Shown here in pieces: positions 1 through 11,300 of a DNA stretch of 36,706 nt. Position 1 is the first letter of the stretch. The number at the start of each line of letters is the position of its first letter. The stretch comes from Pseudanabaena sp. (lineage in GTDB: Bacteria; Cyanobacteriota; Cyanobacteriia; Pseudanabaenales; Pseudanabaenaceae). The stretch is taken from assembly GCA_003249035.1 (NCBI GenBank), contig QBMK01000037.1, positions 1 through 36,706 of the forward strand, given 5' to 3'. The notes beneath the pieces were generated by a model. It saw only the letters and a list, made by a program, of their open reading frames with translations. It was not told where the DNA came from and ran no database searches. The position numbers were made by a program, and so were the translations under genes.

Positions 1-44
1 CTAAATTTCTTTGACATTTGGCTTTGCCTAACTCTTCTTCTTTT

Positions 45-2042
45 TTACCTCTTTTTGCGCGTTGCGTAAGTCCTATATTTAATAAAAGTACTAATTGACC
101 CTGAACTTATATTTTCACAAAATAAATCCTCAGTTTGTTTTATAATAACTCCATAGGGCAAGCGTAGGATAAGTCTTTGATAAATTGTCCAAGCTTTAAA
201 TCCATGACCAAATGAGAAGTGAGTAGTTTGTTCTAAAAATAAATCAGGAAAACAATATCTTTTACAGATTGGGCAATATTTTTTTTGACTTAGATATGCA
301 TCAATACTCTTTTTACATCCATTTTTAAAGAAGATAACATCAATAAATATTCTTTCAATAGCTTTGTCTGAATTTTTATCTGTCAATTCAGTATTGCACT
401 TTGAACATTTTTCTAAAGCTGGTATTTCAATCACTCTGTTTAATTTTGCAGGGGCTAATCGACTATAGCCCTTATGACCCTTTTGCCCACCGATCTTTCT
501 TCTCTCATTATTATCACCAGAATTTCTTTTGGAGATACTTATTTTTGCTTCTTCATAGTTGGCATGGGCGTATTTAAGAATTGTGTCAAATTCATCATGA
601 ATTTGCTTTCCATTTTCTGTAGAGATTTTTTTAGGTCGATCAGCAAAATCTATATTTACCTGAGAATCTGGATTTTCTGAAATCTTGCAAAATTCATTTA
701 CTAATATCACCAAAGCATTACAGTCATTTTGATTGTATCTAATCAACATTTGCTGATATGTGGAATCTTGGCTATCCTCCCATTTGTATCGCCATATAAG
801 ACTCTGTAAACCTGAAGCATTTTGAGCATCCCAAGTGATTCTAATAAAATTGCCGATCGCCTTTAGGCTATTTGAATAAGTCGGGAAATATATCTTGCCA
901 TAAATGTAGGAAGTAAGATTAATTAATCGGTTTTTGATTGCTTCAAAATCTGATGAATATCTTTTACCTAACTCAGTAATTGCCTTAATCTCATAGCTTC
1001 CATAGTGATAAATAGGTGCTTCAGGGTATTCATTTAGTTTTTTAATTAACTGCTCCCAAATTTCTTTCTCATTATTGGTTGTATTTGCCCAAAAAGCATG
1101 ATGGGAGATAGTTTGGTTTTCACACACTGAAAGACCGATTAGATAATGAAAATCCTGATCGGGAATTCCTTCTATATCTAAAAAAAGTTCAATTAATTTT
1201 CTCGTTAGTTTTGGTAGCTCCTGAATGTATATCTTCTGTTCCTTAATTGCTAAAGCTTGCAACTCCAAACTATGCTTGACCACAGGTGTTTTTGTTTTAT
1301 GTTTTCTCTTGCTTCGGGGTCTAAAAAGATAAGAAAGTTGGAGAACTGTAAATATTCCCTTCTTGTTATACTTTTGAATTGCTTTTGGAGTCATTCGATC
1401 TAACAAGCTGAGATTATTTTCCTTCACCGCCTGTTTTTGACATAAATCTTGAAATTGACAAGATGGACAATGTTTATTCAGCATCAAAGTTGGAGGCTCA
1501 AGAGGTTCTTCTTTACTCCATTCCTGTAATATCTTCGCTAATGGTGCGATCACTTTATATCCGCTTTCCAACTTAACTCGATGAGACTCACCATCCATTC
1601 CCACAATTATTCCTGTTGTTGGCAACTGTTTCTGAATTTGTCCCAACACCTTGCCAATAAACAAAAGCTCTATTTTCTGCTCTTTGGTTATGGTACAAGT
1701 TCCAACAACGATTGTCGGTTCAAACATCACCTTTCGATTGGACTCATCCTGCTCAACTTTGGTTAAAACATCGCAATAAGCTTCCCAACACTCTACCTTG
1801 AGTGTAGCTTCAACAAAAAGTTCATCTTTCTTTAAATTTTTTTCATTATAGGGTTTAGCTTCCTCATGTACTTGATTAAAAGTCTGAATATACTCAGCTT
1901 GATGAACTTTTCGACGCTCTTCTAAAATACGAGGATAATCATGAAGCGTACCCCGATTATCTGAGAACAAGAGCAAAAATGCTTTACGAGGACATTGGGA
2001 ATAAGCAACAACCACATCTGACGAGATCACTTTGTCAATCAT
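45..2042 (-). CDS. TM0106/RecB-like nuclease - RNase H-like - IS66 transposase N-half fusion
   Basis: Product is 665 residues with three parts. Residues 1-210 resemble the TM0106 RecB-like family. C17 plus C192, C195 and C201 could bind an Fe-S cluster as in Cas4/AddB nucleases. D91 and E108 are possible active-site acids, but I see no clean (D/E)xK. Residues 285-450 resemble a DEDD RNase H-like exonuclease (RNase_H_2), with D289 and E291 in LFLDIEG and D440 in YNQNDCNAL. Residues 480-660 resemble an IS66 transposase start: GGQKGHKG at 518-525, a zinc finger with C546/C549 and C590/C593, then the helical region through SSGSISTFI. The IS66 catalytic DDE domain is absent and would lie past the window edge. 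The start has a strong ribosome binding site. I saw no exact HIP1 octamer in the gene, unlike its neighbours, which suggests acquisition. Whether it acts in DNA processing or transposition is unknown. The fusion itself is clear from the sequence. Confidence 0.75.
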   Translation of the reverse strand: MIDKVISSDVVVAYSQCPRKAFLLLFSDNRGTLHDYPRILEERRKVHQAEYIQTFNQVHEEAKPYNEKNLKKDELFVEATLKVECWEAYCDVLTKVEQDESNRKVMFEPTIVVGTCTITKEQKIELLFIGKVLGQIQKQLPTTGIIVGMDGESHRVKLESGYKVIAPLAKILQEWSKEEPLEPPTLMLNKHCPSCQFQDLCQKQAVKENNLSLLDRMTPKAIQKYNKKGIFTVLQLSYLFRPRSKRKHKTKTPVVKHSLELQALAIKEQKIYIQELPKLTRKLIELFLDIEGIPDQDFHYLIGLSVCENQTISHHAFWANTTNNEKEIWEQLIKKLNEYPEAPIYHYGSYEIKAITELGKRYSSDFEAIKNRLINLTSYIYGKIYFPTYSNSLKAIGNFIRITWDAQNASGLQSLIWRYKWEDSQDSTYQQMLIRYNQNDCNALVILVNEFCKISENPDSQVNIDFADRPKKISTENGKQIHDEFDTILKYAHANYEEAKISISKRNSGDNNERRKIGGQKGHKGYSRLAPAKLNRVIEIPALEKCSKCNTELTDKNSDKAIERIFIDVIFFKNGCKKSIDAYLSQKKYCPICKRYCFPDLFLEQTTHFSFGHGFKAWTIYQRLILRLPYGVIIKQTEDLFCENISSGSISTFIKYRTYATRKKR

Positions 2043-2046
2043 GATG

Positions 2047-2054
2047 CCTCCTTA
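2047..2054 (-). promoter_or_regulatory. Shine-Dalgarno site of the nuclease/transposase fusion
   Basis: On the minus strand TAAGGAGG lies 4 nt before the ATG at 2042. This is among the strongest ribosome binding sites in the window and fixes the start of the fusion gene. Confidence 0.7.
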
Positions 2055-2186
2055 GTGCAACATGAAAACTTTTAGCCACGATTTATATTGCTCACGATAA
2101 CACCTATCACAAGACAGTTCCATCACCACTCAATAAAAATTCATTTACAAAGTTTTCTAAGCGGCGATTACAATTGTGTTACAAAT

Positions 2187-2248
2187 CAATAGCTTCTAAA
2201 GAAGACTTAATTTGAGCGATCGCATTGTAGATGTGTTGATAGGCGATC
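2187..2248 (-). repeat. Imperfect direct repeat, copy A (downstream of uma2)
   Basis: About 62 bp matching a second copy at 2884-2948, with a 25-nt identical core at 2211-2235. On the minus strand it directly follows the uma2 stop (TAG, 2248-2250) in the same frame. There it would read IAYQHIYNAIAQIK followed by a short tail and a stop. It may be a lost C-terminal extension of the nuclease or the trace of a duplication. Confidence 0.6.
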
Positions 2249-2811
2249 TAGAAAATACCCTCATAAATATCTGCCATCGTTAGCGAGAGATTTACCGAGT
2301 TTAAGACTACTTTATCCTCACTTCCCAAAACTTCCATTGTCCAATCCCCTTGCAAATCTTGACGATAAACCTCTACTTTAATTTCATCTTGAGAAACTAA
2401 AACATATTCCTGCAAACTACCAATCGTTTGATAATTAACCAGCTTTTCGCGGCGATCGCTTACCTCCGTACTAGGTGACAACACCTCAAAAATCACACAA
2501 GGGTAATTCACAAAATACTTATCCCGATCTTTAGGACTGCAAGTAATCAGCACATCAGGATAATAGAATATTGTCTTATTTTGATTAGCAGCCTTTAACT
2601 TGACCTTCATATCTGACATGAAAACATCGCAAGCCCCACCCCGCATTTGAGAACGTAACCAACTTGCAATATTTAAAGTAATGATATTGTGAGCCTTACT
2701 CCCCCCAGCCATCGCAAAAATCTGACCACCCAAATACTCATGGCGAACTTCGCTCTTACTCTCTGCGTCTAAATATTCCGCAACTGAGAAAATATGAATC
2801 GGTGATCGCAT
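2248..2811 (-). CDS. Uma2-family (DUF820) PD-(D/E)XK-like endonuclease
   Basis: A 187-residue protein of the Uma2 family, which is greatly expanded in cyanobacteria and has a restriction-endonuclease-like fold. Its biological role is not established. Visible hallmarks are SVAEYLD near the start, RHEYLGGQIFAMAGGS, the central YYPDVLI with the catalytic-type Asp, VIFEVLSPST (the E of ExL/ExK) and REKLVNYQTI. The C-terminal LTMADIYEG is also typical. I start at the ATG at 2811. A TTG 24 nt upstream keeps the frame open but adds residues that do not look like the family. The gene is flanked by two copies of an imperfect direct repeat and lies between the fusion nuclease and the transketolase-like gene, consistent with an accessory island. 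No partner antitoxin is evident. Confidence 0.85.
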   Translation of the reverse strand: MRSPIHIFSVAEYLDAESKSEVRHEYLGGQIFAMAGGSKAHNIITLNIASWLRSQMRGGACDVFMSDMKVKLKAANQNKTIFYYPDVLITCSPKDRDKYFVNYPCVIFEVLSPSTEVSDRREKLVNYQTIGSLQEYVLVSQDEIKVEVYRQDLQGDWTMEVLGSEDKVVLNSVNLSLTMADIYEGIF

Positions 2812-2883
2812 AATTTTTGCAACTTGACATGTCAACTATCATATCACCTTAAAATTTACGATGCCAGAGAGAGAAGGCTTGCT

Positions 2884-2948
2884 CAATAGTCTAGATAGAA
2901 GACTTTGATTTGAGCGATCGCATTGTAGATGTGATGATATGCGATCGC
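2884..2948 (-). repeat. Imperfect direct repeat, copy B (upstream of uma2)
   Basis: Second copy of the repeat at 2187-2248; the identical core is at 2909-2933. On the minus strand it can be read as AIAYHHIYNAIAQIK and then a stop, with another stop shortly upstream, so it is a fragment and not a gene. With copy A it brackets the uma2 gene. Confidence 0.6.
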
Positions 2949-3152
2949 GCTGCATTAACTCCCTATTATTGCCCCAACCAACAACAACCTTTTGACCCAC
3001 GCCCGACAGTTTAACTTTAGCTAGCAAATCAAGACTTGATGTAACCCTAGACATACTAAAATGACTCTGGAGAAGAAATTTCAACATTTCTTAACCTCTA
3101 TACATTTCATCATTAAATCTTTAGTCTAGATAAACCCAAGGTCAAAAAATCT

Positions 3153-5363
3153 ATGGTCGCAACCCCAGAAACCACAAACGCAGCCACTCCCGCTTTCTGT
3201 GAAGGCATTCAATACTTTGGCGAACCGTTGGAGGGGTTCGACGAGCTAGGACTTGTACCTGTACTCAGCCCAGAAAAATCTGGAGTGACTGACCCTAGCG
3301 ATCGCGCGGCTGTCTTTCAAACCTTACTAGCGGCTGATGCTCTGCGCTATCTCACCTTACAAGTCACAGCTAGCAAAGCATCAGGACACCCAGGCGGATT
3401 TGCCAGTAGCGCCGAAGCCGTCGCCGCCTTTTATATGCTGGGTCACAAGAACATGCCCACAGAAGTTGGACATCATGCGCCTGGATACTACAGCGCCATG
3501 TTTCTCGATCGCTCTCTCGAAGATATGGGCATTAGCACCGTAACGCAAATGCGCGATCGCTATCGTGAAAAACATGGCTTGCTCGGTCACTTATCAGGAT
3601 TTATCCCCGGCATTCTCGCTCCTGCTGGCCCCCTTGGACAAGGACAACATTTTGCGATGGCAGCAGCCCTGCTGCATCGCGACAAGCTTTTTCCAGTGAC
3701 GATGGGGGATGGTGGCATGGGTGAACCCTATCCAATTAGCTCGATCGCTCACTTTCATACTGCTTATCCTGAAGTCACAAATTTTATTCCAATTCTGGTT
3801 TGGAATGGCTATAGCCAAGAACATCACAGCATGGTTTCGACAAAGACCAATGCGGAAATGATTGCTTTCTGGAAAGGGAACGGCTTTGATGAAGTAATTC
3901 TGATCGATGCGAAGGATTTTGACGATCAGAATCAACCAGAAGCCTATGTTGATAGCACCGCTTTCTCTTTCAAACAACGCTTAGCTTTTACAGAAGCAGT
4001 TCTTGTCGGTGTGGACAAAGCCGCAAAACTAGCCTTTGGAGGCAAACTGACTGTATTTATCATCAAACAACTTAAGGGCGCTGGAGTTCATGCACGCGGT
4101 GCAAAATCCCATAACCTCTATGCTCACCACACCCTCGAAAATGCTGATGTTGTTGCTGGTTTAAAAGCCCGTGCGCTCAATCCTGAAGCATGGCAGACCG
4201 TTCGCACAAATTTAGAATGGGCTGGCGGTGGTTCTTCTTCTAAAACTGCGGTTACAGAATCAGTACTAGCATTAACCGATTTGGGAACTTTGCCCTTAGA
4301 AGAGTATGCTGCTGGGGAAGCAAAGATTTCCACAACAGCGATGGGGCGTTTAGTTGGCTACGTCGGACAAACCGATAAGCGCTATATCGTCACTAATGCT
4401 GATGGAAACGAAGCTTCAGGGATTGCCAATATCAACCAAGCTCTAAAAATCAACCACCCCACCGAGGATGCACTTTATAATCAGGGACCAGGTGGACAAG
4501 TTTACGAACCATTGAGCGAAGATGCTTGTGCGGGCTTAGCGGTTGGCTTGGCACTGATGGGTAGCCGTACCCTCTGGTGTTCCTACGAATCCTTTGCGGT
4601 TAATGGACTGCCAATTTGGCAAACAGTTACTCAGGCTATGGCAGAGCTGCGCCGCCCTACTCCTGCAACTGTATGCTTGTTTACCGCAGGAGCTTTGGAG
4701 CAAGGTCGCAATGGTTGGACACACCAACGGCCAGAAATCGAAGGCTACTTTGCCTCAATGATGCGGAATGGAAATATCTTCCCTCTCTTCCCTCTTGATG
4801 CAAATAGCATCCAAGTATGCTATGACTGGGCGCTGAAGGCAGTGAATAAGGGTGTTGTGATTACCGCCAGCAAATCACCTTTGCCAATCCGTACTACTTT
4901 TGAGCAGAACCGCAAGGCTCTCGAAGATGGTGCAATTACTTTGCAAGAAACCGCAGGTAATAAGAAGGTGGTCTTCGCTGTCATCGGTGACATGATGTTG
5001 ATTCCTGTGTACGAAGCGGCGCAAAAACTCGCAGAACAGGGAATTGGTTCCAAAATCGTCTCGATTGTCAGCCCTCGCCGCCTCTATCGTGCGACCGATG
5101 TGGCTTGGGATACTTGCTCAGAGCCAGATGGGAAATTCTTGAGTGATGCTGATTTTGAGACTTTCTTTGGTGGTGATGCTTTGATTGGTATCGTGGGTGG
5201 TGCTTCAGCAATGCTGGAACCTGTAATGCTCCGCAGCAATAGCAAGCGCGATGTCTTCTCATGGAAGCGTGGTGAGACAACTGCCTCTGCTGGTCAGTTG
5301 TTTGATTTCAATGGCATGAATGCTGACGCGATCGCAAATCGGGCAAAGCAGTTAATTAGCTAG
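3153..5363 (+). CDS. Transketolase/phosphoketolase-like thiamine diphosphate enzyme
   Basis: Product is 736 residues, shorter than classical phosphoketolases (about 790). The N-terminal part carries a transketolase-like SKASGHPGG. The rest follows phosphoketolase (XFP) more closely: GDGGMGEPYP (thiamine diphosphate/Mg site), then FIPILVWNGY, which resembles the XFP LPILHLNGY. Later come EPLSEDACAG, CSYESFAVN, NGWTHQRPE and LFPLDANS, matching the order of XFP motifs. A role in splitting sugar phosphates in central carbon metabolism is likely, but the substrate cannot be read from the sequence. From memory, Synechocystis has a divergent second putative phosphoketolase (sll0529) that this may correspond to; I could not check. 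Several HIP1 sites mark it as native. The start is the first ATG, without a clear Shine-Dalgarno site. The next gene follows after 67 bp on the same strand. Confidence 0.8.
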   Translation: MVATPETTNAATPAFCEGIQYFGEPLEGFDELGLVPVLSPEKSGVTDPSDRAAVFQTLLAADALRYLTLQVTASKASGHPGGFASSAEAVAAFYMLGHKNMPTEVGHHAPGYYSAMFLDRSLEDMGISTVTQMRDRYREKHGLLGHLSGFIPGILAPAGPLGQGQHFAMAAALLHRDKLFPVTMGDGGMGEPYPISSIAHFHTAYPEVTNFIPILVWNGYSQEHHSMVSTKTNAEMIAFWKGNGFDEVILIDAKDFDDQNQPEAYVDSTAFSFKQRLAFTEAVLVGVDKAAKLAFGGKLTVFIIKQLKGAGVHARGAKSHNLYAHHTLENADVVAGLKARALNPEAWQTVRTNLEWAGGGSSSKTAVTESVLALTDLGTLPLEEYAAGEAKISTTAMGRLVGYVGQTDKRYIVTNADGNEASGIANINQALKINHPTEDALYNQGPGGQVYEPLSEDACAGLAVGLALMGSRTLWCSYESFAVNGLPIWQTVTQAMAELRRPTPATVCLFTAGALEQGRNGWTHQRPEIEGYFASMMRNGNIFPLFPLDANSIQVCYDWALKAVNKGVVITASKSPLPIRTTFEQNRKALEDGAITLQETAGNKKVVFAVIGDMMLIPVYEAAQKLAEQGIGSKIVSIVSPRRLYRATDVAWDTCSEPDGKFLSDADFETFFGGDALIGIVGGASAMLEPVMLRSNSKRDVFSWKRGETTASAGQLFDFNGMNADAIANRAKQLIS

Positions 5364-5430: not shown

Positions 5431-7959
5431 ATGAGTACAGGTCGGTTAATCGTCCAGTTAGGTATCGCCGCCTATATTCTATTTACCCTATTGCCCGATA
5501 GCAGTACCCAGATGGTTTCGTTCCCTTGGGTATTGCTGTGGCAAGTAGGACTGCTATGCTTTGCGATCGCAGGTTTACTAAATCTATGGCGGCGTGAGAA
5601 ACCATTTTATTTATTAGGCAGTGGCTTTGATTGGGCGATTGGCGCAGGCTTTGTAACACTGTGCTTGTCAACGATGTTTTCACAGTTCCCAAATCAGGCG
5701 ATGTGGTATAGCCTGATTGCCTTTGGCTATTTTATAGCGTTGTATGTAACTAATAATTTTTTACATGGAGCATCACCGCCAGTAGCGGTAAAGAAAACCT
5801 CGGCAGTTTTACCAATTTTGCGCTTTCAAGGCTTATTAGGATTTGCCGTAATTATTACAAGTTTGTTTCTGTGGATCACTCAGTCATGGTTGCCACAATT
5901 AAATAATTTTGCCAAGCTGAATCAATGGGGGCTAAATCTTAGTTACGATTTTTCGGATTTACAATCCCGTAATTGGGCACCGATGGGGCATCAGAATTAT
6001 GTGGCAGGATTTTTGATGTTGGTTTTGCCGATTTTTGCAAGTTTAGCGATCGCCCAGAAGGGAATGTGGCGCTCGCTATGGCTAACAGCAATTGGTTTAG
6101 GCTTAATTGATTTATACACCACCAGTTCACGAGGCGGATTTTTGGGGCTAGGTGCAATAGTTTTGTATGGAATTATTGTGGCGCTATTTCGGATTAAGGG
6201 CAATCGATGGTTGGTTGGTTTGGGTGGAGTTGTCGCGATCGCCATAGTGGGATTATTGATTGCGACAAACAATCGCTTGCGATCGCTCATATCAGGATTA
6301 ATCACCAGTTTTGCTAATCCCGCTCAAGGATCGGGAGAATTATTATTTAGAGCGATCGCAGCGGATGTGGGCTGGCGGATTGGCTTAGAACATTTGTTAT
6401 TTGGTGCAGGGGCAGGCTCAGCAATCATGCTCTATCAGCAATATCGTCCTCAATGGGCGGGAAGAGAAGCTGAGCTTTTATTTCAATTACATAGTACGCC
6501 TGTTCATCTTTGGGCTGAGCTGGGAATCGGGGCGGTAATCACCTTTTTGTTTTTATGCGTGGCGCTTGTATCTCTATTCATCAAATTACATAGATCTCAG
6601 ACTTGGCAAGCTAATTCAGAAGAACAGGCGATCGCCTATGGATTATTTGGCAGTGTAATTGGTTATGGAATGCTAGCAATTACCGATTATCAGCTAGATG
6701 TTCCTGCAATTAGTGGCAGCTTGGTGATTGTATTTGCTAGTCTGGCTTATCTAGGTCAGATACATACAGGCGAATTGATTAGTCTTGGTCATCAAAAATT
6801 GCCGCGCTTTTGGTTAGCAACTATTGCGACAGTTTATTTGATATCCGCGATCGCCTGGCTTGTTCCTGTGAATTTGGCTTGGCAAGCCTCAAGTGTAGGG
6901 TTTATCTATCTATCGAGAGCAAGAGAAGATTTGGCGACAGGAAAGCAGGAATTTCTACCTGAAGCGATCGCAGCGATTGATAAATTCCAAGATCGCCTCA
7001 AATTTGCGCATCACCAAGTTCCTTGGGAACCTTACTATCCTTATCAATTGGGTTGGAATCTCGCCGATCTTGCCGTTAACTATCCAAATTTACCGCAGGC
7101 TTCAGCTTGGCAAAAAGATGGTTTAGCATGGATCAAAACGGCGATCGCCACTAATCCCAATAACGAAGCAGGATTCAATGCTGCCTCATGGCTTAGTCTA
7201 AGGCAAGATTCTGCCGAAAAATCTGCTCAAGAAGCAGAGGCTTATTTCCGTCGTGGTTTAGAGCTAGTTCCCACCAAGCGATCGCTAAACTTTGGTTTCG
7301 GATTGAGTTTATTGCGTCAAGGTAAGACCGATGCGGCAGTTGCAGCAATGACTACGGAAGTAATCAACGACCCCATTTTTATTACTAGCCCAATTTGGAA
7401 AGAGCCACCATTCCAAAGCCTTTATCCACAAGTAGTAGCCAATCTGGAAAAATTCTATCGTAATGATCCTAGCAAAGCACTAAATCTTGCAGTTTTGAGA
7501 TGGTGGAATGGTAATCCTAATGCAGTGGAGGAACTCAAGCAAACAGGAAATCCCACGGCAGTTCTATTAGCTAATGCGATCGCTAATGACAGTAGCACCT
7601 TGCAAGGGGTCGCAAAAAATCCCCAAACCCCTCTAGAAATGGTAATTTCGGCATGGCTAAATCCTAATTTGCGTGACAAGTTACTAGAACGCGCCTACGT
7701 ATTTGCCACGAATAGTCCACCTGACGATCGTTCAGCTGCCATAGTCAAAGCTATGAGCGATCGCATGGCTCAAGCTCCTAATTTTGATGCTTGGATTCGT
7801 TTACCTTTACCAGTCAACAGTCCCCTAGTGATTAACTATCGTAGGGCAAGACTTGGCTTTGGTGTAGTCAGTCGGCATTTGGATGGAGTTGTCCCCCTTG
7901 ACTTCTTTAATGTAAGCGATCGAGCTGAGATATCGCTTTTTCTCAAAGATTTATTCTAA
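5431..7959 (+). CDS. O-antigen ligase/polymerase-family membrane protein with TPR-like C-terminal region
   Basis: Product is 842 residues. The first 480 are strongly hydrophobic with about ten to twelve membrane segments. A large extramembrane loop lies around residues 290-350. The pattern LTAIGLGLIDLYTTSSRGGFLGL and the later HLWAELGIGAV are typical of the Wzy/WaaL/IctB superfamily, whose members join or polymerise glycans at the cytoplasmic membrane; the actual substrate is unknown. Residues 490-842 are soluble and helical, with repeats that look like TPRs (for example LATNPNNEAG-like and RGLELVPTKRSLNFGFG). This is a common layout in cyanobacterial members. It lies 67 bp downstream of the transketolase-like gene and may be cotranscribed. 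It ends before two large palindromes. Confidence 0.8.
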   Translation: MSTGRLIVQLGIAAYILFTLLPDSSTQMVSFPWVLLWQVGLLCFAIAGLLNLWRREKPFYLLGSGFDWAIGAGFVTLCLSTMFSQFPNQAMWYSLIAFGYFIALYVTNNFLHGASPPVAVKKTSAVLPILRFQGLLGFAVIITSLFLWITQSWLPQLNNFAKLNQWGLNLSYDFSDLQSRNWAPMGHQNYVAGFLMLVLPIFASLAIAQKGMWRSLWLTAIGLGLIDLYTTSSRGGFLGLGAIVLYGIIVALFRIKGNRWLVGLGGVVAIAIVGLLIATNNRLRSLISGLITSFANPAQGSGELLFRAIAADVGWRIGLEHLLFGAGAGSAIMLYQQYRPQWAGREAELLFQLHSTPVHLWAELGIGAVITFLFLCVALVSLFIKLHRSQTWQANSEEQAIAYGLFGSVIGYGMLAITDYQLDVPAISGSLVIVFASLAYLGQIHTGELISLGHQKLPRFWLATIATVYLISAIAWLVPVNLAWQASSVGFIYLSRAREDLATGKQEFLPEAIAAIDKFQDRLKFAHHQVPWEPYYPYQLGWNLADLAVNYPNLPQASAWQKDGLAWIKTAIATNPNNEAGFNAASWLSLRQDSAEKSAQEAEAYFRRGLELVPTKRSLNFGFGLSLLRQGKTDAAVAAMTTEVINDPIFITSPIWKEPPFQSLYPQVVANLEKFYRNDPSKALNLAVLRWWNGNPNAVEELKQTGNPTAVLLANAIANDSSTLQGVAKNPQTPLEMVISAWLNPNLRDKLLERAYVFATNSPPDDRSAAIVKAMSDRMAQAPNFDAWIRLPLPVNSPLVINYRRARLGFGVVSRHLDGVVPLDFFNVSDRAEISLFLKDLF

Positions 7960-8004
7960 TGAAAGCGAAATGTTGGTATTAGGGACTTACACAAAATAAT
8001 CGAT

Positions 8005-8049
8005 CCCCAAAATATGGCGACGGGCGGAGCCCGTCGCCATATTTTGGGG
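8005..8049. repeat. Perfect 21-bp inverted repeat, extragenic palindrome family 1
   Basis: Arms 8005-8025 and 8029-8049 are fully complementary around a 3-nt loop. The outer arm reads CCCCAAAATATGG. It is followed by TTTTATATGGATCG, which is also found in similar form after the palindrome at 23488-23548. It can act as a terminator for the upstream gene. Confidence 0.85.
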
Positions 8050-8122
8050 TTTTATATGGATCGTTTTTTCCTTGGAGTTCCCTTAGACTAGCTAAGGAAT
8101 GAAAATTAAATTACATGTGCAT

Positions 8123-8179
8123 ATAAAACCCAAAATTGGTTCGGCGAGCGAAGCCCGCCGAACCAATTTTGGGTTTTAT
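8123..8179. repeat. Perfect 24-bp inverted repeat, extragenic palindrome family 1
   Basis: Arms 8123-8146 and 8156-8179 pair completely around a 9-nt loop (AGCGAAGCC). The outer arm ATAAAACCCAAAATTGG and the GC-rich centre GGCG...CGCC are shared with the palindrome at 23488-23548 and partly with 8005-8049, so these are members of one repeated family. Confidence 0.85.
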
Positions 8180-8343
8180 TAAATTATCATTCCTAACTTA
8201 AAAAAATCTAGCAATATACAGCAATAAGTCTTGCGATTTTTTGTTATTAACAGTTAACATACATAGATTATGGAAGAAAGACGTTAATTCATTAAGATTT
8301 TATCTAAGCTGGAATATAGGAAATCAATCTACATGGCTACACT

Positions 8344-11300
8344 ATGCTAGTAAACATTCTCGACTATCAAGTTCTTGAGAAGATTGAAGAAAGTCCTAAT
8401 TCTCAAGTTTATCGAGGCGTCCGTAGACAAGATAACTTACCAGTTATCCTTAAAGTCTTAAACTCAGACTTTCCCTCAATTGAAGCCATAGGCAGATACA
8501 AATTAGAATATGAAATCACCAGAAATATTGATTCTAACTGGGTGATTAAAGCTTATAATTTGCGGCGTTATCAGAATAGCTTTGCGATCGAACTAGAAGA
8601 CTTTGGCGGTCAATCTCTAGCGAAAATATTAGATCAAAAAAGGTTGACGCTAGTTGACTTTTTAACCTTGGCAATTCAGATTTGCGAAGGTGTTGGGCAC
8701 ATCCATACTGCTCATATTGTTCATAAAGATATTAACCCATCTAATATCGTCTTCAATCCTGAAACTCAGCAACTAAAAATAATTGATTTTGGGATTGCGT
8801 CAGTATTAGAGAAAGAGCTGTTAATTCTTAATTACAATCAAATACTGGAAGGAACTTTAGAATATATTTCACCTGAACAGACAGGGCGGATGAACCGATC
8901 GCTTGATTATCGGACAGATATTTATTCGATGGGCGTGACTTTTTATCAAATGTTGACGGGGCGGTTACCGTTTCAATCAGATGATCCGTTAGAAATAATT
9001 CATTATCATTTAGCGTTAGAACCGATCGCACCGCATTTAATTAATCCTGAGATTCCACCGATGGTCTCTGAAATTGTCTTGAAGTTAATGGCCAAGACTG
9101 CTGAAGCTAGATATCAGAGTGCTTGGGGCGTAAAAGCGGATTTGGAGAATTGTCTACAACAGTTGCAGACAGAATCTAAGATCGAGACTTTTGAGTTAGC
9201 GGAGCAGGATATTACGGATAAATTCTTAACTTCTGAAAAGCTTTATGGTAGAGCGAAGGAGGTTGAGAGCCTATTGGCTACTTTTGGAAGAGTAGCTGCA
9301 ATTGGAGAATCAGGAGATCTCGTGGAGATGGTCTTGATCTCAGGTTATTCAGGCATTGGTAAATCAAGATTAGTGCAGGAAATTTATAAGCCTATCACCA
9401 AAAGTCATGGCTATTTTATTTCGGGAAAGTTTGACCAATATCAACGTAATATCCCCTATTTTGCAATTATTCAGGCTTTTCAGGGATTAATTAAGCAACT
9501 ACTAACCGAAAGTGAGGCTGATTTAGAACAATGGCGATCGCAAATTAGGACCGCACTGGGATCTAATAGCCAGATGATCGCTCAAGTGATTCCATCTCTA
9601 GAGTTGATTATTGGCATAGAAAGTAATAAACCGCTATCTACAAACATATCAACTAGTGAAGCCCAAAATCGATTTAATAAAATTTTTCAGAAGTTGATTA
9701 GAGTCTTTGCTCAATCAAAACATCCGTTAGTTATCTTTTTGGACGATCTTCAATGGGCTGATCGTGCTTCTCTTGGATTACTAGAGATATTAGCAACTAC
9801 AACCGAACCACAGAATCTGCTTTTGATTGGTGCATACAGAGACAATGAAGTTAATGCAGCTCATCCAATCATGCAAATGGTGGAGAATATTCAACAGATA
9901 AATGGAGTAATCCATCAGCTTTATTTGTCAGCATTAAACCTTAGCGATATCAATCAGCTTATCGCCGACACTTTACACTGTTCCACGCAATCTTGCCTGC
10001 CACTTGCTGAACTATTGCAAGAAAAGACAGGTGGTAATCCCTTCTTTCTAAATGAATTCCTCAAGACACTGTATGCGGATGATTTAATTAGGTTTGACTA
10101 TCGATCGCTAGAGTGGCAATGGTCGATAGCCCAGATTCAGGAGCAGGCAATTACGGATAATATCGTGAGTCTGATGACTGGAAAAATCCAAAAATTGGGC
10201 GCTCTCCCCAAGCATCTGTTGACGATCGCTGCTTGCATTGGAAATCAGTTTGATCTTGAAACGTTAGAGATCACATTAGATCAAAAAAGCTCTTATATTG
10301 AGACTATTCAAGCCCTCCGAGCGTTAATTACTGAAGGATTAATCTTGTCCCTAGATAATGCGCACCAATCTATTCACTATGGAATCGAATTAACTAACAA
10401 TCGCCCTGCGATCGCCTATAAATTTGGGCATGATCGTATCCAACAAGCTGCCTATTTTCGGATTGATGAAGCTAAACAAGCCGAAATTCATCAACGAATT
10501 GGACAGCAATTGCTCAAGAATACTAATGATTCTCAACTTGAATTAAAAATATTTGATATTGTAAATCAACTTAATCTTGGTATAGAGCTGGTTTCAAGTC
10601 GGCTAGAACGAGATCAATTGGCTCAACTCAATTTTATTGCAAGTCAGAAAGCCAAATCCTCAAATGCTTATAGATCTGCATTTAACTATGTAAAAACTTG
10701 CGTGAAATTACTAGGGGTTGAAAGCTGGAAAAGTCAATATGAGCTAACTTTAAGGCAATATCAGTTAGGGGTTGAGGTCGCTTTTTTAAACGGTGATTTT
10801 GCTCAGATGGAGAACTGGTCGATAGTTATTTTAAGTCATGCAAAAACTTTGCTAGACAAGACTAAAATCTATGAAATTCAGATCCAAGCATTAGTTGCTC
10901 AAAATCAGCGGTTAGAAGCAATCAAAGTTGGAGTTGAAACTTTAAAGCTACTAGGTCTTGAACTCCCTAAGCAAACTTCTCAAGCTGATGTAGCAGTGGC
11001 TCTACAGGACTTCCAAGCAATCATAGCCTTGCACCAGATTGAAGATTTGTTAGAGCTTCCATTGATGATCGATGAGATCGCATTAGCCGCGATGAATATT
11101 CTCCTAAGTATTGCGGCAGCATCTTATGTAGCGGCTCCAGAGTTATACATTATTGTTGTATTACAGCTAACGAAGCTATCGATCTCCAAAGGAAATGCCA
11201 TAGGCTCAACCTATGGATATTCAGCTTGTGGACTGATTCTCTGTGGACTTATGAATCGAATTGAACTAGGCTTTCAGTTTGGGCAACTAGCATTGCAATT

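Follow-up and report, generated by a model that had tools for sequence, protein, structure and literature searches.

A TM0106-type nuclease joined to an IS66-type transposase: a broken copy in Pseudanabaena and its intact relatives

Introduction

The window analysed here, i.e., the entire 36,706-nucleotide contig C30 of a Pseudanabaena sp. assembly, begins with a 665-aa open reading frame (45-2042, minus strand, in the reading-frame listing for positions 1-5000) that raises the question of what a chain joining nuclease domains to part of a transposase might do, and whether its lack of a DDE domain is natural. An earlier note, made from the letters of the sequence, had read it as a three-part fusion of a RecB/TM0106-like nuclease, an exonuclease and the front half of an IS66 transposase, and had taken the missing DDE domain to suggest a domesticated or programmed mobile element. 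One chain carrying a Cas4-type fold, a proofreading exonuclease of the polymerase type and a transposase would represent a new coupling of DNA-end processing to integration; the grounds for interest are a conserved chain of apparently single origin that is found in several phyla and lacks visible transposon ends. For the window itself the lesson is smaller, as its copy is a broken one and the striking absence of the DDE domain is almost certainly an insertion artefact.

Results

Domain organization and composition of the window copy

TIGR03491 (TM0106 RecB-like) matched residues 10-447 of the window protein with 220.2 bits (E=5e-65), well above its curated cut-off of 97.45, and RNase_H_2 (PF13482) matched residues 286-450 (E=4e-26). 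The NCBIfam IS66 model (NF033517) gave a weak match on residues 520-655 (19.8 bits, E=3e-4, under the cut-off of 180); the IS66 homology of these residues is made clear by the intact relatives described below, which share the join, and the proposed three-part fusion is thus borne out. The IS66 part of the window copy stops before the first aspartate of the DDE triad. Features and coordinates are collected in Table 1; we suspect that the middle region (residues 211-284) has a helix-hairpin-helix character.

With regard to composition, the gene has a GC content of 34.0%, as compared to 42.6% for the window, and contains none of the 61 HIP1 sites found in the window, where approximately 3.5 would be expected (Poisson P ~0.03); elsewhere, only 0.3% of equal-sized windows are free of HIP1. 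The HIP1 poverty reported in the earlier note, and the horizontal origin that it was taken to support, are both upheld.

Table 1. Positions of the fusion gene, its parts and its surroundings in the window
Feature	Coordinates	Strand	Basis
End of an IS701-family insertion sequence	1-74	minus	Repeats at contig ends; open IS701 transposase beside an 89% match in genome G435
Stop codon of the listed reading frame, within the insertion sequence	45-47	minus	Reading-frame listing; alignment of contig starts
IS66 transposase front, residues 520-656: zinc finger (C546, C590, C593) followed by the first part of the conserved transposase region	75-485	minus	NF033517 match; alignment with intact relatives
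Fast-evolving linker, residues 456-519	486-677	minus	Low identity in the fusion pairs listed; high dN/dS
B-polymerase-type 3'-5' exonuclease domain, residues 285-455: D289, E291, E351, Y436, D440	678-1190	minus	PF13482; PolB fold match; residue counts
Middle region, residues 211-284: sequence conserved, modelled with low confidence	1191-1412	minus	Invariant residues in alignment A5; pLDDT <50 at 231-251
Cas4-like domain, residues 1-213: C17, C192, C195, C201; PD-(D/E)XK lysine missing	1404-2042	minus	TIGR03491; Cas4 fold; residue counts
Non-coding stretch upstream of the gene	2043-2210		Not found at this site in the two closest relatives
HIP1-containing dispersed repeat where shared DNA meets strain-specific DNA	2211-2248		Flank comparison; repeat also at 2909-2946

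Truncation by an IS701-family element

The first 74-76 bases of the window are also present on nine other contigs of the genome (92-100% identity), at the very contig end in eight of the nine and 265 bases from the end in the ninth (C58), and an additional partial copy (88%) lies inside contig C5. Five contig starts, including that of the window, match letter for letter through base 74 and diverge thereafter. In the same-genus genome G435 (locus L207), an 89% copy of window 1-74 adjoins an open 311-aa transposase frame that scores 353.7 bits with the IS701 model NF049921 (cut-off 250). A search of the same 74 bases against plasmids gave no match. In the window, the start of the IS transposase is an ATG at 17-15 on the minus strand (M S K K F), from which the frame runs off the contig. 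Since the alignment of contig starts and this transposase start together place the end of the insertion sequence here, the listed reading frame enters the IS after residue 656, where the fusion frame is cut; only 75-2042 is the fusion gene's own sequence, and the last nine residues of the reading frame are IS sequence.

The anatomy given above and the loss of the DDE domain to an IS701-type element inserted where the contig ends are thus, taken jointly, almost certain. The lack of a DDE domain is therefore not the natural architecture that it had been taken for and, being insertion damage, cannot suggest domestication. A search of the window genome's own assembly with an intact relative did not find the missing DDE half, and otherwise matched only a distantly related IS66 protein of the ordinary kind, on contig C33; because no second half was recovered, both deletion and an unassembled piece are possible fates of the lost 3' half. 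The window copy, as it has no DDE domain, should not catalyse integration and should be dead.

Architecture and distribution of the intact family

Intact relatives are approximately 910 residues long and consist of the Cas4-like domain, the exonuclease domain, the IS66 zinc finger and a full IS66 DDE domain. The first three identified (906-911 aa each) are a plasmid protein of Calothrix sp. PCC 7716 (BDA76463.1) annotated as "transposase IS66, putative", a plasmid protein of Acaryochloris marina annotated as "TM0106 family RecB-like putative nuclease", and a protein of genome G167, the contig of which is identical to a Snowella MAG contig; in the two annotated records, each half thus hides the other. 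These three proteins match PF03050, the complete IS66 DDE model (1.6e-36, 1.1e-32 and 7.9e-23), and the IS66 part, for which the earlier note had considered that homology might fail, is therefore homologous. All three exceed the TIGR03491 cut-off of 97.45 (253.9, 237.1 and 225.2 bits), and with NF033517 two are above the cut-off of 180 (194.8 and 185.1) and the Acaryochloris protein is below it (147.1). The nuclease-to-IS66 join is common to relatives from other genomes at 63%, 53% and 33% identity.

An alignment scan of 84,980 species genomes identified 21 loci, a lower bound because the scan relies on short exact patterns. Fifteen of these are cyanobacterial, in line with the similar architectures that the earlier note had mentioned for other cyanobacteria; two are Phycisphaerae-type, and one each comes from Ignavibacteria, Thiorhodococcus, a Thermoplasmatota MAG and a Desulfobacterales MAG, although some of the MAG contigs are short and could be mis-binned. 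Additional diverged copies were found by searching 22 host genomes or records. There are 23 distinct open frames with both halves (one of them, L149, runs to the contig end), from cyanobacteria, Planctomycetes, Ignavibacteria and an archaeal MAG, and in all 23 the DDE domain is in the same chain, not in a separate following gene as had been envisaged. At least 10 copies are disrupted or partial (the window copy, L074, L076, L077, L078, L080, L082, L085, L141 and L152), including those of Thiorhodococcus (L076) and Desulfobacterales (L085, counted as partial as tblastn found its nuclease half only); the fragment loci L140, L151, L153, L156, L157 and L158 were excluded from both the intact and the disrupted counts. 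A separate transposase-only subfamily was considered and dropped, as L140 runs up to the end of its contig and L141 appears to contain a frameshift. In the genome of Calothrix sp. PCC 7103 (L154/L155, contig 1 of G421), a 3.2 kb insertion would interrupt the gene, provided that the contig is circular. The flanks of this copy are 97% identical to Dulcicalothrix, and the transposase half between them is diverged by 10%.

In a spread sample of 386 genomes of the phylum, the only near full-length match besides the window genome, among the matches listed, was in G167. None of 22 other genomes of the same genus (G001-G022) carries the fusion, and close-relative scans with the window protein alone gave no matches. 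These 22 genomes also lack any TM0106-type protein detectable with the window protein, whereas 14 of 15 relatives from other families have one. The alignment scan of viral contigs and the search of phage records found no relative, and a profile search had no match among the sequences of solved structures. Overall, the fusion family is conserved, widespread and, as far as the literature was searched, undescribed.

Catalytic residues and structural models

Nuclease residues were counted in 28 fused halves and 42 ordinary cyanobacterial TM0106 rows, the latter representing 41 distinct proteins since L014 and L016 are the same ordinary protein. The four cysteines that the earlier note had picked out for a possible Fe-S cluster (17, 192, 195 and 201; Fe-S-type by sequence) are invariant, being present in 28/28 fusions and 42/42 ordinary rows. 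By contrast, the position that aligns with the catalytic lysine of PD-(D/E)XK motif III is K in none of the 28 fusions and in 16 of the 42 ordinary rows; the ordinary group thus is partly degenerate as well. Exonuclease-type motifs had also been recognized correctly: D289, E291, Y436 and D440 (the acids and Y-x3-D) are found in 28/28 fusions and 42/42 ordinary rows, and position 351 is E or D in 28/28 fusions. Position 375, an asparagine in the window copy, is N in 27/28 fusions and D in all 42 ordinary rows. That this D-to-N replacement kills the exonuclease was considered and dropped, as the aligned metal ligands are other acids; it could, however, impair the enzyme. In the transposase halves, the DDE triad D684, D733 and E853 (Calothrix numbering), which is absent from the window copy, is complete in 30/30, and the zinc-finger cysteines are kept in 29-30 of 30.

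The structure prediction proposed in the earlier note for the full protein was carried out for window residues 1-460 and indicated a Cas4 fold followed by a PolB-type exonuclease fold. The best of five models had a mean pLDDT of 85.9 and a pTM of 0.82, with two of the five reaching pLDDT 85 and three at approximately 70. The best fold match of residues 1-213 was Cas4 in the Cas4/Cas1/Cas2 complex (7mi4 chain A, which we take to be a Cas4-Cas1 fusion; Z 17.3, rmsd 3.2, 190 aligned), and residues 283-460 matched exonuclease domains of B-family DNA polymerases (Z 16.1, rmsd 3.1, 164 aligned). A full-length Calothrix model was weaker (pLDDT 70.0, pTM 0.45), and its domain arrangement is not to be trusted; its C-terminal part matched the ISCth4 transposase (Z 14.5, rmsd 4.5, 254 aligned) as well as Hermes, and Foldseek matched the full model to Cas4 with E ~1e-5.

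Phylogeny, recombination and selection

In quick maximum-likelihood trees, a single branch separated 28 fused rows from 14 of the 42 ordinary TM0106 rows for the nuclease half (support 100), and 29 fused rows from 12 ordinary IS66 proteins for the transposase half (support 100; a caveat here is the long branches among the ordinary IS66 rows). Both trees contain the same two deep groups of fusions and fit a single origin, and the nuclease-IS66 join thus apparently arose once. In L075 (4686-7415, a Leptolyngbya MAG), the nuclease half is 68% and the transposase half 37% identical to Dulcicalothrix and the halves fall in opposite deep groups; this copy is, judging from its two halves, a natural chimaera of the groups. 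Synonymous divergence between L070 and L081 is 0.35 in the first domain as compared to approximately 2 in the exonuclease domain. Because synonymous divergence jumps within genes and the halves of L075 belong to different groups, fusion copies appear to recombine. In six pairs that are not all independent, since some have sequences in common, dN/dS is 0.15-0.35 in each of the three catalytic-fold domains, which indicates purifying selection; in the linker dN/dS reaches 0.72 and is the highest or near-highest in most of the six pairs.

Flanking DNA

The gene is AT-richer than its flanks at 22 of 23 loci. Sequence shared between related copies is mostly confined to the reading frame; in the Calothrix group it extends approximately 600 bp further upstream, and in two Phycisphaerae it takes in some tens of bases on each side. 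At the window locus, the two closest relatives are 94% identical only from 2211 (L117) or 2215 (L118) on and have other genes beyond; the alternative flank of these relatives was not found in the window's own genome. The site beside the Uma2 and phosphoketolase genes (2211-3200) is variable, one relative having an internally repetitive protein and the other a HATPase-domain protein, and may be a hot spot. The repeat that marks the border is present in many copies in genomes of the same genus.

At the Nostoc locus L079, relatives lack the stretch from 7904/7910 to 10771; some have approximately 440 bp (one approximately 700 bp) of other sequence at this site and others join directly to 11097. 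No target duplication was found at this site, and the segment replaces the ~440 bp of several relatives, which is not a simple insertion. The stretch 7904-10771, as seen with the Nostoc loci L191-L204, is a modular variable region with different short cassettes in each species, and it lies downstream of what appears to be the end of a tyrosine-recombinase gene. Flank searches in Nostoc for a further locus, L146, yielded a one-sided border that was consistent at query positions 5301-5313 in four genomes and no clean empty site. Of 31 fusion loci, 7 (two in one genome) have a tyrosine recombinase no more than 1.5 kb away, compared to 0 of 41 ordinary TM0106 and 0 of 13 IS66 loci; further out, at 3-8 kb, recombinases were found at 3 of the 31 (one weak). 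The profile used was derived from recombinases of the fusion loci themselves, and the sets of loci come from different genomic settings; this link is suggestive only and may only reflect genomic setting. Flank comparison does not separate ordinary gene transfer from transposition.

Transposon ends and neighbouring genes

Ordinary IS66 elements have GTAA-type terminal inverted repeats and an 8-bp target duplication, and carry TnpA/TnpB partner genes, although not in all subgroups. An IS66-specific scan found GTAA ends with 8-bp duplications at 0 of 27 fusion loci, against 2 of 100 in a background of mismatched pairs. Flanks of 300 bp or more were available on either side at 23 of these loci; the other four had less than 300 bp on one side, with almost none for L149. 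The target-site duplications of IS66-type ends that would have supported the earlier note were thus not found at these loci. A general scan of 13 ordinary IS66 controls, two of which were spoiled by N runs, found such ends and duplications in three; the IS66-specific scan recovered these three, which were picked as positive controls because the general scan had shown their ends. A general search for inverted repeats with duplications at 19 fusion loci gave best per-locus scores of 24-30, where the background reached 32. In 22 genomes or records there were no near-identical extra copies of the kind that an active IS would leave, although identical copies can be collapsed in short-read assemblies.

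These data bear on the possibility that the fusion is an ordinary autonomous IS66-type insertion sequence with an acquired nuclease module and ends that are too diverged or too far out to be detected. The intact DDE triad, the matches to IS66 models, the single gene with no conserved partner, and the patchy spread and decay would all agree with such an element; the ends and duplications seen in 3/13 ordinary IS66 and 0/27 fusions, sharing that (apart from the Calothrix group and two Phycisphaerae) is mostly limited to the reading frame, and the lack of near-identical copies within a genome argue against it, and we regard it as possible but rather unlikely.

Beside the 23 loci there is no recurrent partner gene, except for orthologous neighbours in the Calothrix group and a short reading frame in four loci, at varying distance. 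The neighbours that do occur are relevant to another explanation, which we consider unlikely and place below the insertion sequence, i.e., a domesticated protein that serves defence or repair on plasmids and in variable islands, with a DDE domain that cuts foreign or broken DNA as an endonuclease and a gene that spreads passively. Consistent with this, IS66 ends are absent, copy number is low and locations are hot spots; an Eco57I-type methylase adjoins L070, a UvrD helicase L077, a PD-(D/E)XK-type protein L072 and a DUF2398 protein, which we take to be Wadjet-linked, L076; an annotated VapC toxin is near L047; and the short reading frame at 4 of 23 loci looks PIN-like. Ordinary TM0106 proteins on proteobacterial plasmids adjoin WYL, HEPN and SIR2 genes, and PADLOC Cas4 models match the Acaryochloris protein (4e-9) and the window protein (2e-3). 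However, no defence gene recurs near the fusion, the 20 annotated neighbours being diverse; PADLOC found nothing beyond Cas4, and nothing for L084; and both the zinc finger and the full DDE domain, which a plain nuclease would not need, are kept. For the family as a whole, the evidence on domestication is thus mixed, with the triad kept in 30/30 halves and IS66 ends found at 0/27 loci.

Discussion

The best overall explanation, and one that we consider probable, is that the fusion is a mobile end-processing integrase. Mobility is suggested by AT-richness relative to flanks, absence from 22 of 22 same-genus genomes, strain-specific segments (at the window and Nostoc loci), at least 10 broken copies and recombination between halves. 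Against an integrase stand the lack of IS66 ends and duplications, the lack of near-identical copies, the D375N replacement and the lack of a target duplication in Nostoc.

How such an integrase might work is proposed more tentatively, and the scheme could well be wrong. The Cas4-like domain, lacking the catalytic lysine, would grip DNA ends as a binding module and would not cleave; the exonuclease domain would trim the 3' end; and the DDE domain would join the trimmed 3'-OH to target DNA. The order of the steps, the substrate and any host role are what we infer. The fusion would most likely move its own gene, or a short surrounding segment, into variable hot spots, of which some lie on plasmids (as in Calothrix sp. 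PCC 7716 and Acaryochloris marina) or near tyrosine recombinases. A more far-reaching version, in which a single chain captures DNA independently of CRISPR, with the Cas4-like domain selecting ends, the exonuclease trimming them and the DDE domain inserting the captured DNA into hot spots, seems improbable; if true, it would make the fusion a DDE-based counterpart of the set of Cas4, trimming exonuclease and Cas1 that serves CRISPR adaptation. Finally, while the reading frame ends at a contig end within a repeat, an assembly chimaera or chance read-through, seen only here, is extremely improbable as the source of the join, which sits within the gene, ~0.5-0.7 kb away from the contig end, and recurs in relatives and in 23 open frames.

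Comparison of the mobile end-processing integrase with known systems begins with IS66 TnpC, which shares the zinc-finger region and the DDE domain with its intact triad; the fusion differs in a 450-residue nuclease module in front, in forming a clade apart from 12 ordinary IS66 proteins, and in having neither GTAA ends with 8-bp duplications nor a recurrent partner gene. The TnsA-TnsB fusions of Tn7-like elements likewise join a PD-(D/E)XK fold to a DDE transposase, but domain order and families differ. A literature search, with most subscription papers outside its reach, returned no description of a TM0106-IS66 fusion. The TM0106/TIGR03491/COG2251 proteins resemble the whole N-terminal half, with four cysteines and a DUF83/Cas4-like domain followed by RNase_H_2; the ordinary cyanobacterial members compared are ~480-580 aa long, as opposed to ~910 for the fusion, which adds IS66, lacks the PD-(D/E)XK lysine (28/28) and has N375 (27/28). 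Four TM0106 proteins on proteobacterial plasmids (L061-L064), three of ~1130 aa with another C-terminal part and one of ~680 aa, have no detectable IS66 part; some of them adjoin DEAD-helicase or DNA-polymerase genes as well as the WYL, HEPN or SIR2 genes mentioned above, which suggests defence or repair islands. In the available part of a 2014 survey of the RNase H-like superfamily (PMC3985635), COG2251 is described as occurring with DUF83 and often AAA domains, and IS66 is mentioned elsewhere and not linked to COG2251. Cas4 and Cas4-Cas1 proteins share the Cas4 fold, the four cysteines and an attached integrase with the fusion. Cas4-Cas1 fusions and mobile-element Cas4 are described in PMC5704561, where, in the portion of the article available, the Cas4 motifs are given as conserved and the word "transposase" is absent from the main text. 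By contrast, the fusion lacks the catalytic lysine, its integrase is a DDE domain instead of Cas1, and a polymerase-type exonuclease is built into the same chain.
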